Below, one piece after another: positions 14,726 to 26,729 of a stretch of DNA of 33,288 bases (position 1 is the first letter of the stretch; each line of letters starts with the position of its first letter). A model generated the notes under the pieces. The model saw only the letters and a program-made list of their open reading frames with translations, was not told the origin of the DNA and searched no databases. This DNA comes from Bifidobacterium breve (GTDB taxonomy: Bacteria > Actinomycetota > Acidimicrobiia > Acidimicrobiales > Microtrichaceae), in the NCBI GenBank assembly GCA_945901935.1, contig CAMDLX010000018.1, forward strand, positions 1-33,288, written 5' to 3'. Both the position numbers and the translations under genes were made by a program.

Positions 14726-15169
14726 CTAATCTGCAGAATTCACTAGGTGTTGTGCCGAGAGTTCAAAGTATTCACGCATTCGATCCCGAACTGCTTCTTG
14801 TAGCTCGGGGTCGAGGGGTGTGCCTGGCATCGTAGAATCGAGCGCCAAAAACATTGCGTGCACCCAGTGGTCGCGTTCAGTCGCCCCGATGACGAATGGC
14901 GCGTGGCGCATACGCAACCTTGGGTGGCCTCGTTGTTGAGAATAGGTGTCTGGCCCACCCCAGTATTGGCCAAGAAACAGGGCGAGACGCTCGCGAGCCG
15001 GTTCCAGATTCTTTTGATCGGGATACAAACGAAGGAGCACATCGTCCTGAGCAACTTGTTCATAAAAATGCCGAACCAGTTCGTCAAAGAAGCTTTGTCC
15101 GCCGACTGCTTCGTAGACCGTTACCTGCTGATCCGGTGTTGTGTCGGGTTGAGCGCTGTCATTCACCAC
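14726..15169 (-). CDS. glbO: Group II truncated haemoglobin (GlbO-like)
   Basis: A truncated 2-on-2 globin that binds O2/NO, often linked to NO or peroxide detoxification. VYEAVGGQSFFDELVRHFYEQV is the N-terminal helix pair with the B10-type Tyr. RLRMRHAPFVIG contains the proximal F8 His, and ERDHWVHAMF has the G8 Trp typical of group II. I choose the GTG at 15169 (or the adjacent GTG at 15166), giving ~147 residues. The open frame continues to a GTG at 15256, but that adds 29 Pro/His/Cys-rich residues that partly encode a 12-bp repeat and do not resemble globins. Start remains uncertain. It lies 66 bp upstream of the dehydrogenase gene on the same strand. Confidence 0.88.
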   Translation of the reverse strand: MVNDSAQPDTTPDQQVTVYEAVGGQSFFDELVRHFYEQVAQDDVLLRLYPDQKNLEPARERLALFLGQYWGGPDTYSQQRGHPRLRMRHAPFVIGATERDHWVHAMFLALDSTMPGTPLDPELQEAVRDRMREYFELSAQHLVNSAD

Positions 15170-15223
15170 TCCATGGTGGCAGTGAAGGGGAGCAGGAGGC
15201 CAGAACGGCGAACTGGAGCAGTG

Positions 15224-15259
15224 GGGGACAGCAGTGGGGACAGCAGCGGGGAACACAGT
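15224..15259. repeat. Three 12-bp tandem repeats
   Basis: GGGGACAGCAGT (15224-15235), GGGGACAGCAGC (15236-15247) and a diverged GGGGAACACAGT (15248-15259) lie in the gap between the haemoglobin gene and the Nfu-like gene. Confidence 0.85.
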
Positions 15260-15648: not shown

Positions 15649-15670
15649 GTATCGAACAAGTGTTCGATAC
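15649..15670. promoter_or_regulatory. SOS (LexA) box upstream of imuA-imuB
   Basis: Perfect palindrome: arms GTATCGAACA (15649-15658) and TGTTCGATAC (15661-15670) around two bases. The core CGAAC-AAGT-GTTCG matches the actinobacterial LexA consensus. It overlaps the putative -10 box of imuA (15666-15671), so LexA binding would block transcription directly. Confidence 0.88.
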
Positions 15671-20733: not shown

Positions 20734-20767
20734 TGCAGTCCTAGAGCAAGAGACTGCAGTCCTAGAG
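20734..20767. repeat. 13-bp direct repeat spanning the EAL gene stop
   Basis: TGCAGTCCTAGAG occurs at 20734-20746 and 20755-20767. The second copy holds the TAG stop codon of the minus-strand GGDEF/EAL gene. Offset is 21 bp. Confidence 0.85.
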
Positions 20768-22921
20768 GGCCGAGCGAGACGAGGTTGCCGAAGCGGCGAT
20801 GGGCTTGTGGCTCTGCATGAATTTCTCGAAAGCCAAACGCGGCAGCGGGGGAGCATAGAAAAACCCTTGCACCGAATCGCATCCGCCGTCGATCAGGAAC
20901 CGGCGTTGCTCTTCGGTTTCTACACCTTCCCCGACTGTGTGAATTCCAAGCCCTTGGGCCAGGTTCAAAATGGCGCGAGTGATGGTTTCTGATCTGCCAT
21001 CACCAAGTTCACTGACAAAGCAGCGATCAACCTTCAGGGTGTGAAGCGGCAGCATGTGCAGGTGAGATAGCGATGAATACCCAGTGCCAAAGTCGTCGAG
21101 CGAGACCAAGAAACCCAGTTCGTGCAGGTCGCTCAGGCGTTGCGCCGTTACCTCGACATCACGCATGAGCAACGTCTCGGTGATTTCGAGTTCAAGCTGG
21201 GACGGAAGCACCCCAACGTTGTCAAGGGTGGCAGCGAGACGTTGAACAAATCCCCGCTGCTCAAATTCGGTAGCTGAAATGTTGATCGCAATACGTGAGC
21301 CTGCATTGAGCAGGTTCTGCTGGTTCCACCCTGCTAGATCTTCCGCAACAGTCGTGACGACCATGTCGCTAATCGCAGAGATTGCTCCAGTGGCTTCGGC
21401 ATCTGGGATGAAAATAGAAGGCGGAATCGGGCCATGTTCTGGGTGGTTCCAGCGCACCAGTGCTTCGGCCCCAGAGACTGCGCCAGATTGCAGGTCAATA
21501 ATGGGCTGGTAGTACACCTGCAAATTGCGCTGCGCAGCAGCAAGGCGAAGGTCTCGGTCCAAAGCAAGGCCCGTTCGGCCCCGCTTATCAAGGGAACTTT
21601 CGAAGAAGCGAACCTGATGGCGACCTTCTCTTCGGCTCGCTGCAAGAGCAGTATCAGCTGAGCGTACAAGAGTTGCACCATCGCGTGCATTGGCAGGGTA
21701 GCGAGAGATTCCGACCGACGCAGTCAAGCGAAGCTCAAGACCTTCCACAACTAGTGGTTGTTCAATCCTTCGCTGTAATTCTTCTGCCAGTCGGCGAAGG
21801 CGAGTATCGAAAGAAAGGCTTGCATCGTTGCCCGTGATGACGACGAGGAACTCATCGACACCAACTCGACCGATTTCAATGTGACGTTCCGTTAGATCCC
21901 GGATGCGATCGGCAACAGCGATGAGTACCTCGTCGCCGAAGGCAGTGCCAAAGGTGTCGTTGACGCTACGAAAGTCATCAAGGTCAACGTGGAGCACGCC
22001 CACTCGTGCATCATCGGCGTTGGATGAATTCCGTTCTGCTGCTCGAACTGCTGCGTCTACCTGAGCGGTGATGTGGTGCCGGCTACGAAGAGAGGTGAGG
22101 TGGTCAGTTGCCTCAATCTGTTCACGACGGTCGACTGACTGCAGCAGCGCAGTGAGATCACCCAGAACGAGCACAGCACCACGAAGAGATTGATCAGTCC
22201 CAAGGAGCGGTTCACAGCTGACCTCTACCGAGATAAGTTCACCCAAGACGCGATTCAGGCCGTTACCTCTGAGTTGTACATGATCGAGGCGCTGCGGTTC
22301 GCCGGTTCGAAGGGCCTTGACGGGGGGAGTGTCCTCAATCTCTAAGAAATCCCCTTCCAGCGATTGCCAGATCCAAGGAGGGTCAAACACGCTGTGATCG
22401 AGCACCAGGCTTTGCTGCAAATCTACGAGTTGTAAGAAGGCAGTATTTGCCCGTTCAACCCGGCCCAGATGATCCAGAATTGCCACGCCCTCTCCAAGGG
22501 CCTCAAGGGTGGCATCAAGCAAGGACTCAACTTGTGGAGGTTGGGCGGCGGGCAGCGTTGCGAGCGGTTGGGATCTGGTGATTGCCAGCACTCGTGTTTG
22601 TTCAGGTTCGCCCGAGTAATCGAGAGTGAGCGTCAGATCAACGAGTTGCACGAATCCAATCTCTGAACGTAGGCCCACCGAGACAGTGTGGCTAGCAGCA
22701 GGGGGAATTTGTGCCAGCAGTAGTTGCCAAGCCTCCGAGGAAATTTCTGGCTCGATCAGACTGCAGAAGTTGGCCCCGAGAAGTACTCCCGGATGAGATC
22801 CCGCTTGTAGTGAACCTGATTGGCTGACTTCAACAATGGAAGCATCGCTGGCATCGAGCAGCCAGACACCATCTTGCAGATGATCTACAAGCAGTGCCAG
22901 CAGTTCTTCGGCCTCAGACAT
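20762..22921 (-). CDS. PAS-GGDEF-EAL c-di-GMP phosphodiesterase
   Basis: A 719-residue cytoplasmic signalling protein. Two PAS-like sensor regions occupy about residues 5-115 and 132-255. A GGDEF domain follows (residues ~270-430), in which the active-site loop reads GVDEF (354-358) and the upstream inhibitory RxxD site is missing (ERHI). The EAL domain has the full catalytic set: EALVRW, NISATEF, ELEITETLL, SLDDFGTGYSSLSHL, LKVDR and GEGVETEEQ. Hence it probably degrades c-di-GMP, with the GGDEF domain perhaps regulatory. ATG 22921 has a very strong Shine-Dalgarno (AAGGAGGT, four bases before the start). It is convergent with the kinase gene, 29 bp away. Confidence 0.93.
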   Translation of the reverse strand: MSEAEELLALLVDHLQDGVWLLDASDASIVEVSQSGSLQAGSHPGVLLGANFCSLIEPEISSEAWQLLLAQIPPAASHTVSVGLRSEIGFVQLVDLTLTLDYSGEPEQTRVLAITRSQPLATLPAAQPPQVESLLDATLEALGEGVAILDHLGRVERANTAFLQLVDLQQSLVLDHSVFDPPWIWQSLEGDFLEIEDTPPVKALRTGEPQRLDHVQLRGNGLNRVLGELISVEVSCEPLLGTDQSLRGAVLVLGDLTALLQSVDRREQIEATDHLTSLRSRHHITAQVDAAVRAAERNSSNADDARVGVLHVDLDDFRSVNDTFGTAFGDEVLIAVADRIRDLTERHIEIGRVGVDEFLVVITGNDASLSFDTRLRRLAEELQRRIEQPLVVEGLELRLTASVGISRYPANARDGATLVRSADTALAASRREGRHQVRFFESSLDKRGRTGLALDRDLRLAAAQRNLQVYYQPIIDLQSGAVSGAEALVRWNHPEHGPIPPSIFIPDAEATGAISAISDMVVTTVAEDLAGWNQQNLLNAGSRIAINISATEFEQRGFVQRLAATLDNVGVLPSQLELEITETLLMRDVEVTAQRLSDLHELGFLVSLDDFGTGYSSLSHLHMLPLHTLKVDRCFVSELGDGRSETITRAILNLAQGLGIHTVGEGVETEEQRRFLIDGGCDSVQGFFYAPPLPRLAFEKFMQSHKPIAASATSSRSAL

Positions 22922-25019: not shown

Positions 25020-25222
25020 GAGCCTTGATGTGCTGGATCCTCGCGGGCCACCGACCTGCTGTGGGCCTGTGCCTACGGGTGGCATGCCGAGAGCAATTTG
25101 GGGGTCTGAGCTACTCTTAGTGCCGATTCCGATTGAAGCTGCCAAGCTCATCACCGTGTCGCTACGGGGGAGTCGCGAGTTGCTTACTGAGACATGCCAC
25201 ACTGCTGTCCTCAAAACTTTTC

Positions 25223-25229
25223 AAGGAGG
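25223..25229 (+). promoter_or_regulatory. Strong ribosome binding site of the H-NOX gene
   Basis: AAGGAGG, six bases before GTG 25236, fixes the start of the H-NOX protein. An in-frame ATG at 25194 lies upstream of it and is not used on this reading. Confidence 0.85.
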
Positions 25230-25235
25230 CCTTTC

Positions 25236-25784
25236 GTGAAAGGTGTTGTCTTTATTCTGGTTGAAGAATTTGTTACTGATCAGTTCGGCGCCGAGGCCTG
25301 GGATGGGCTGTTAGAGGCTGCTGGACTAGATGGGGTCTGGACAACGCTCGGCACCTATCCCGACGAGCACCTAGCGATGCTCGTCAATGCCGCAGCCGAG
25401 CGATTTGAGTTGCCTCCGGAGCAAGTCCAGCGACTAGTCGGGCAAGGGACGTTCTCCGGGTTAGCGGCACAGCACCCAGCGCTACTTGAAGATCACACAA
25501 GTTCCCGTACCGTGCTCCTCGACCTGAACGGAATCATTCACCCCGAAGTTATGAAGTTGTACCCCGGCGCAGAGGTTCCTTGGTTTGACATTACCGAGCA
25601 AGCGGACGGATTGCTGCACCTGCACTATCGGTCGCGACGCGCTTTGGGGCCACTTGCAGAAGGGCTTATTGTGGGAGCCGGTGCATACTTTGGCGAGTCG
25701 ATAGAACTGTTGTCGGTCGTTGATACTGGCGAGGAGTGTCAGATGGTGATCCGCATTGAACAGAGTACGGGTGCGAAGGGCTGA
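25236..25784 (+). CDS. H-NOX haem-based nitric oxide sensor
   Basis: A stand-alone 182-residue H-NOX (HNOB) domain. The N-terminus VKGVVFILVEEFVTDQFG is family-typical. With GTG 25236 as residue 1 the diagnostic residues fall exactly at canonical numbering: proximal haem ligand H102 (LNGIIHPEV), haem-distorting P115, and the propionate clamp Y131-S133-R135 (YRSRR). Position 140, a Tyr in O2-binding H-NOX of Thermoanaerobacter, is Leu, which predicts NO selectivity over O2. Stand-alone H-NOX proteins normally control a partner histidine kinase, cyclase or phosphodiesterase encoded next to them. Here the next gene starts within its stop codon (TGATG). A strong Shine-Dalgarno is present. Confidence 0.93.
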   Translation: MKGVVFILVEEFVTDQFGAEAWDGLLEAAGLDGVWTTLGTYPDEHLAMLVNAAAERFELPPEQVQRLVGQGTFSGLAAQHPALLEDHTSSRTVLLDLNGIIHPEVMKLYPGAEVPWFDITEQADGLLHLHYRSRRALGPLAEGLIVGAGAYFGESIELLSVVDTGEECQMVIRIEQSTGAKG

Positions 25785-26692
25785 TGCTCGATAAGACGGC
25801 GTCTCGGATTGCTCTTCTAGAGCGGCGCGCCGATCGAGAACGCCAGCGACGCCAAGCGGCCGAGCGTGCAGCCGAGAGGGGACTGCGCCGCTTATATGAG
25901 GTGAATCAAGACCTAGACCAGCTCGTAGCTGAGCGAACTGCAGAGGCTTTGGAATCATTCCAAGTTGCTGAGCAGACACTCGCCTCTCGGGTGGACATCC
26001 TTCGAATGATTGCCCAAGAGATTCTGACGCCTCTGCAGCAGATTCAAGGAACTGTAGAACTCGTTGCTAGCGCTCCGCTTCAAGAGGTGGAGCAGCACCG
26101 CGTTGCAGCTTCGGCAGTCACAGCTGAGCGTTGTGTGCAACTTGTGCGAGACGTGGTTGACCTAGTGGAAATCGAGTCTGCTGTTGTGAGCGAGCCAGTC
26201 GAACCGTGCCGTCCGCTCGAGCTTCTCGATGAGCTGATTTCCTTGCGGCGGACTCAGGCTGCTCAACAGGGTTGCACTCTCGTTTTGGAGGTTGAGTCCG
26301 ATAGCAATGTCGATGCTCTGCTAGATGGGAGCCGTGCGGTTCGAATAGTTGATGAACTTCTCGCAGGAGCACTAGACGTAGGAAGTGCGCAAGTTGTAGT
26401 GACGGCAAGTGTCGCCGTGTATGAAGATGACTCAGTTGCTGAGATGATGAGCGAGATGGCCGCCGAGAATTTCTCGCAGCTGCAAGATGCGCTGCGCTCC
26501 TCTGAGCTGGTTATTTCGGTGGACCATGATGGTGAGTCGCAATCTGCAAGCATGGTTGGAGCAGAGGCCGGCCTGGTGTTGGCCACGCGATTAGCAGAAG
26601 CACTTGGAGGCACGCTCTTGGTGGTGCCGTCTGAGCTAGGCGGCGTAGCGAGAGTCCTGCGGTTGCCTATCAGGCAGGCCGGGAGCCGATAA
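25784..26692 (+). CDS. H-NOX-partner pseudo-histidine kinase (phospho-acceptor His replaced by Gln)
   Basis: A 302-residue cytoplasmic protein. Residues ~8-68 are a highly charged coiled coil (RIALLERRADRERQRRQAAE... LYEVNQDLDQLVAERT), of the sort placed before DHp helices. The H-box reads IAQEILTPLQQIQ (76-88) in place of the usual SHE-(I/L)-RTPL: Gln78 (codon CAA) sits at the His position and Leu81 at the Arg. Residues ~140-300 resemble the ATP-binding domain in layout (DGSRAVRIVDELLAGALD, later AGLVLATRLAEALGGTL ending in a RVLRLPI strand). The N-box Asn and most G-box glycines are gone. So neither autophosphorylation nor normal ATP binding is expected. It probably transmits the H-NOX state by protein contact. 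Calling it an HK relative is inference from this alignment by eye. Confidence 0.75.
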   Translation: MLDKTASRIALLERRADRERQRRQAAERAAERGLRRLYEVNQDLDQLVAERTAEALESFQVAEQTLASRVDILRMIAQEILTPLQQIQGTVELVASAPLQEVEQHRVAASAVTAERCVQLVRDVVDLVEIESAVVSEPVEPCRPLELLDELISLRRTQAAQQGCTLVLEVESDSNVDALLDGSRAVRIVDELLAGALDVGSAQVVVTASVAVYEDDSVAEMMSEMAAENFSQLQDALRSSELVISVDHDGESQSASMVGAEAGLVLATRLAEALGGTLLVVPSELGGVARVLRLPIRQAGSR

Positions 26693-26707: not shown

Positions 26708-26729
26708 GTATCGAACATGTGTTCGCTAC
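26708..26729. promoter_or_regulatory. SOS (LexA) box upstream of dnaE2
   Basis: Core CGAAC-ATGT-GTTCG at 26712-26725, matching the imuA box over 20 of 22 positions in the extended site (GTATCGAACA...TGTTCGCTAC). It abuts and overlaps the -10 box TACAAT. Confidence 0.88.

Follow-up and report, generated by a model that had tools for sequence, protein, structure and literature searches.

We found that the haem-based NO sensor (H-NOX) encoded in the window, a stretch of 33,288 nucleotides, is paired with a kinase partner that has lost its phosphorylation chemistry while the sensor itself stays under strong selection. This points to protein contact, and not phosphate, as the present route of the NO signal. 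Judged by its sequence, the pair is an H-NOX family member joined to a descendant of HisKA kinases that lacks the catalytic features of a histidine kinase, and it appears to be the remnant of an NO-sensing phosphorelay. In the clade in which glutamine has replaced the phospho-acceptor histidine (the Gln clade) the H-NOX partner would serve as a contact adaptor, a reading to which we give a probability of about 0.55. The six genomes of the genus provide a natural before-and-after experiment, one with the histidine, a hybrid kinase and a regulator and five without them. Together with losses elsewhere in the order, they make contact signalling by H-NOX partners testable, with a coiled coil as the likely interface.

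The H-NOX sensor and its kinase-like partner

The H-NOX gene (25236–25784, forward strand) encodes a protein of 182 residues and has a GTG start at 25236 and a TGA stop at 25782–25784. Its product matched Pfam HNOB (PF07700) with an E-value of 7.8e-34 and 117.4 bits, against a cut-off of 25.5. An earlier note on this DNA had credited the protein with all canonical haem residues and Leu140, and a residue check against 36 homologues from the order bore this out. His102, Pro115, the YxSxR motif (Tyr131/Ser133/Arg135) and Gly143 are all present and are invariant in 36/36 homologues; residue 140, leucine in the window, is leucine in 34 of the 36 and tyrosine in none. According to established H-NOX knowledge, leucine instead of a distal tyrosine at this position means binding of NO rather than O2 (PMC12329717), and we infer that the window protein binds NO and not O2. 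The zinc site of group 2/3 H-NOX proteins (three cysteines and one histidine or glutamine) was not found, the aligned residues being Gly138, Ser160, Asp163 and Cys168. Since the zinc ligands are absent, a redox switch of the Caulobacter type is not available to this sensor.

Among the Gln-clade genomes, with the 99%-identical pair G000/G002 left aside, omega for H-NOX is 0.04–0.19, a sign of strong purifying selection, and H-NOX is much more conserved than the partner kinase. Its ribosome-binding site, AAGGAGG (25223–25229, forward strand), is identical in 5/5 of these genomes. The leader directly 5′ of the gene (25190–25235) is strongly conserved in the same five genomes and contains a short GACA..TGTC inverted repeat; an operator in this leader is possible. 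No conserved RNA structure was found 5′ of H-NOX, where the GACA..TGTC hairpin folds no better than shuffled sequences.

The partner gene (25784–26692, forward strand) starts with an ATG that overlaps the H-NOX stop codon (TGATG), in agreement with the translational coupling proposed in the earlier note, and encodes a pseudo-histidine kinase of 302 residues. On the same strand, an N-terminal coiled coil (residues 1–66, 25784–25981), the H-NOX-linked module, is followed by a DHp-like helical hairpin (residues 67–135, 25982–26188) and an eroded ATP-binding domain (residues 136–302, 26189–26689). The HisKA match lies above the Pfam cut-off (33.9 versus 26.9 bits), so the profile search, which the earlier note had named as a possible refutation, identifies the partner as a kinase relative; the HATPase_c match lies below its cut-off (13.1 versus 26.4 bits). 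The H-box reads MIAQEILTP as compared with LSHEMRTP, with Gln78 (codon CAA, 26015–26017, forward strand) in place of the phospho-acceptor histidine and Leu81 in place of the usual arginine. The N-box is without its asparagine (ELLAGAL as compared with ELLDNAV), G1 is absent and G2 is degenerate. Changes to the H-box, N-box and G-box had been read from the letters alone, and alignment and profile scores agree with that reading. The partner is predicted to be a histidine-kinase relative that is unable to autophosphorylate in the normal way.

An AlphaFold2 model of the partner (mean pLDDT 83.6) contains helices at residues 2–96 and 101–131, consistent with the coiled coil and DHp-like helix that the protein had been said to keep, and it retains the fold of the ATP domain. 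The coiled coil is modelled with a pLDDT of mostly 95 or more, and the lid region poorly (pLDDT 55–63 in residues 211–240). Fold matches of the model include the RetS/GacS complex and DivL (Z 17.7). Since ordinary kinases score equally, we do not claim that the partner is structurally akin to these two proteins in particular.

We made a profile from the first 50 residues of the protein and searched it against 397 genomes of the order. It returned 32 matches at E ≤ 5e-11, and 32/32 immediately follow an H-NOX gene. Weaker matches (E below 3e-4) were H-NOX-adjacent hybrid kinases, and two weaker matches in the fragmented genome G056 do not adjoin H-NOX. The same coiled coil also heads the GGDEF-EAL partners beside H-NOX in G033, G177 and G114. 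Since it is found beside H-NOX across output domains, the coiled coil is the H-NOX-linked part of these proteins, and it is likely to be the binding interface with H-NOX.

The glutamine clade and the loss of the relay genes

The H-NOX gene and its partner are adjacent in all six members of the genus in the collection (G000–G005). Glutamine is fixed at the H-box in five of them (G000, G001, G002, G004 and G005). Thus two questions raised by the earlier note, whether the partner always sits beside H-NOX and whether the glutamine and the N-box loss are conserved, are answered in the affirmative for the six genus members and the five species, respectively. The sixth member, G003, has histidine at the H-box with the same Leu81; it too is without the N-box asparagine, and its HATPase_c match is likewise below the cut-off (14.6 bits). 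Histidine is also found in 27 other aligned partner kinases. When 40 H-NOX-partner kinases were placed in a maximum-likelihood tree with the H-box column left out, the Gln sequences formed one clade (support 100/98) whose sister is the His-bearing G003. Because this sister and most relatives have histidine, glutamine is the derived state. The stem that leads to the Gln clade and G003 together is long, at 1.55 changes per column, which places the onset of rapid change ahead of the loss of the histidine. The order of events would then be erosion of the ATP domain followed later by loss of the histidine.

The CAA codon is one base from a histidine codon and the genome is a fragmented metagenome assembly (MAG), which could suggest an error in sequencing or a mutation that arose very recently in a single strain. 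The same residue is shared by five genomes that were assembled separately and whose synonymous divergence reaches about 0.28. Fixation of the same residues in five such genomes is beyond chance and is not a recent or sequencing change, which makes that explanation hardly credible. The earlier note had named a recent single mutation as one of the results that would undo its proposal. The change is not recent, being shared by five of six genus members, but it is derived, and most relatives have histidine. The idea of an ancient, stable pseudokinase family was rejected since the nearest sister has histidine. The trait is a derived state and no stable family of its own, for at the corresponding site G003 carries the histidine together with a full set of phosphorelay genes. 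These results come from fragmented MAGs and from a sample of 397 genomes of the order. The isolate names of relatives ('RH') point to a freshwater origin, and the clade probably belongs to freshwater actinobacteria.

The G003 locus is otherwise syntenic with the window, with an RR/HK pair, GGDEF-EAL, PepF and ImuC. Two further genes are present there: one for a hybrid kinase (PAS-HisKA-HATPase-REC-Hpt), between PepF and H-NOX, and one for an OmpR regulator, which follows the small kinase in convergent orientation. Both genes are absent from the site in the window and in the four other Gln genomes. The earlier note had missed this loss, as well as the independent catalytic losses elsewhere in the order and the standing of the coiled coil as the conserved part tied to H-NOX. 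No remnants of the hybrid kinase were found in the PepF/H-NOX gap of the Gln genomes. A search of the five Gln genomes for relocated orthologs of the G003 hybrid kinase and regulator returned paralogs only; the most complete of these genomes, G005, reaches about 92% and consists of 10 contigs. The best matches in these genomes reached about 27–38% over partial lengths for the hybrid and 44% or less for the regulator. Counterparts at other H-NOX loci match the G003 proteins markedly better: their hybrids mostly share 33–38% identity with that of G003 over about 450–670 residues, and their regulators score 185–211 bits against that of G003, compared with at most 161 for paralogs in the genus.

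H-NOX is present in 40/397 genomes of the order. By hand count, 31/31 small-kinase loci outside the Gln clade have a second kinase that is encoded by the same strand and no more than about 2 kb away, and 0/5 Gln loci have one close by. The histidine and the relay genes were lost in a single phylogenetic event, so the link between the two losses counts as one observation.

Catalytic features have also been lost elsewhere in the order. Arginine replaces the H-box histidine in one clade of six (98/95; G142, G198, G222, G344, G347 and G362); the two members tested still give a recognisable HATPase_c match (38–52 bits). The small kinases of G020 and G037 keep the histidine and have no HATPase match (CA truncation). 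In the single-contig genome G038 the partner (locus L109, 7668–8441; 258 residues) matches the coiled coil, has no Pfam kinase-domain match and adjoins an apparently complete hybrid kinase. The upstream hybrid kinase is retained in the Arg clade, G020, G037 and G038, and a linked OmpR regulator also in G198, G222, G362, G347, G020 and G037. Since these losses occur beside a retained hybrid kinase, catalysis by the small kinase seems to be dispensable where the relay persists. Of all the observations, these losses hint most strongly that enzymatic activity is not required of the small kinase. Locus L189 (G563), from a different lineage of the same phylum, encodes a small H-NOX-linked kinase with an extra C-terminal stretch that resembles an Hpt domain.

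Contact, decay or phosphate chemistry

We propose that the layout across the order, H-NOX, a small kinase with a coiled coil, an adjoining hybrid kinase that carries REC and Hpt and, at part of the loci, an OmpR regulator, would work as follows. H-NOX would grip or sense the coiled coil of the small kinase, and the DHp hairpin of the small kinase would bias another kinase, in the manner of RetS and DivL. In the ancestor, the small kinase probably acted on the adjacent hybrid kinase. The window's clade has lost the hybrid kinase and the regulator and exchanged histidine for glutamine. With hybrid kinase, regulator and histidine lost, any output must run by contact with an unlinked partner; NO binding, the H-NOX contact and the unlinked target are putative steps of this scheme. 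A broader version is held more tentatively, at somewhat less than even odds: throughout the order the small kinase would be primarily a contact adaptor between gas sensor and hybrid kinase, with catalysis lost in several lineages and the window's clade keeping a pure H-NOX/pseudokinase switch without a linked phosphorelay.

Contact signalling, as suggested in the earlier note, is the best current reading, though a putative one, and with its near-neutral ATP domain the partner may instead be decaying. Decay of the orphaned pair is the main rival. The pseudokinase would be a decaying passenger after loss of the relay, and H-NOX would act alone or on an unlinked target, for instance a c-di-GMP enzyme. 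In the G000–G001 comparison the ATP domain is indistinguishable from neutral (P = 0.25), and it is weakly constrained in closer pairs. Measured against H-NOX, the DHp has changed more quickly in the Gln clade than it has in pairs that bear the histidine, although the numbers are small. Both results fit decay and speak against an adaptor, as does the absence from the window's own clade of the putative ancestral contact target, gone with the other relay genes. H-NOX is also far more conserved than the kinase. However, the partner open reading frame is intact in five species, and neutral simulation at the G000–G001 divergence gave P = 0.012 for the absence of a stop codon. The coiled coil and the DHp are each under purifying selection in two of three comparisons, and the start-stop overlap has been kept. 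Even under decay, the coiled coil by itself might persist as a chaperone or tether. We regard decay as less likely than contact, though a serious contender.

The partner might instead still take part in phosphate chemistry without a histidine of its own, for instance as a phosphatase-like or ATP-sensing subunit that pairs with another kinase. Such a role would suit the ATP-domain fold retained in the model, and RetS acts in part by taking phosphate from GacS (PMC12189002). It is improbable given the loss of the N-box asparagine and G1 box, the HATPase_c score below the cut-off and a locus with no relay gene left.

Known systems and other features of the window

Contact adaptor or not, the pair resembles several known systems in part. 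In Shewanella oneidensis and Vibrio cholerae (H-NOX/HnoK) an H-NOX gene is likewise followed by a histidine-kinase gene, and Fe(II)-NO H-NOX inhibits autophosphorylation of the kinase (PMC12329717, PMC8738867). The window pair differs in that its kinase is without the phospho-histidine, its ATP domain is eroded, and there is no linked relay and no zinc site. In H-NOX/HqsK and in Caulobacter H-NOX/HnoK, H-NOX also lies beside a kinase, and the kinase feeds into a phosphorelay (PMC12329717). HqsK and Caulobacter HnoK are active hybrids, whereas the ancestral hybrid of the window was a third, separate gene that has been lost; in addition, Caulobacter H-NOX is switched by oxidation of a zinc site that the window protein does not have. 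HaCE-type H-NOX proteins have GGDEF-EAL partners, and some members of the order bear the same coiled coil on such partners, but the output domain in the window is a degenerate kinase.

Precedents for contact come from kinases outside the H-NOX family. RetS of Pseudomonas aeruginosa, the best sequence match to the partner among solved structures, is a kinase-fold protein that controls the REC- and Hpt-containing hybrid GacS by heterodimerisation (PMC12189002). RetS, however, is a hybrid kinase of the membrane that carries a sensor of its own and has no H-NOX, and for the window partner the contact is presumed. DivL of Caulobacter, which matches the partner by sequence and fold, has its phospho-histidine replaced and acts on the kinase CckA by contact (PMC9491836, PMC12189002). 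Unlike the partner, it has tyrosine and not glutamine, carries PAS domains and is controlled by DivK and not by a gas sensor. ChrS is a further precedent, with DivL (PMC9491836). For the H-NOX/kinase pairs that have been characterised, the described mode of action is control over the autophosphorylation of an active kinase (PMC12329717), and a literature search for H-NOX joined with a pseudokinase returned no relevant paper. A 2022 review noted that an H-NOX had yet to be solved at high resolution together with its partner (PMC8738867).

A PAS-GGDEF-EAL protein is encoded on the opposite strand at 20762–22921, two genes upstream of H-NOX. A c-di-GMP link through this protein is conceivable. 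We considered it as a target, but its distance of two genes and its presence in G003 as well leave it with no specific support.

The region around H-NOX is flanked by perfect TCGAAC-N4-GTTCG palindromes at 15652–15666 and 26711–26725, which precede an ImuA-like gene (15660) and a DnaE2/ImuC-type polymerase gene (26739). With one mismatch allowed, five matches to this motif were found where 0.61 are expected. The two genes are likely to form the halves of an SOS/LexA-controlled mutasome on either side of the H-NOX region. About 10 kb from the NO sensor, the window also encodes a bacterial-type truncated globin (14726–15256; Pfam Bac_globin, E 5.3e-31), which possibly handles NO or O2.
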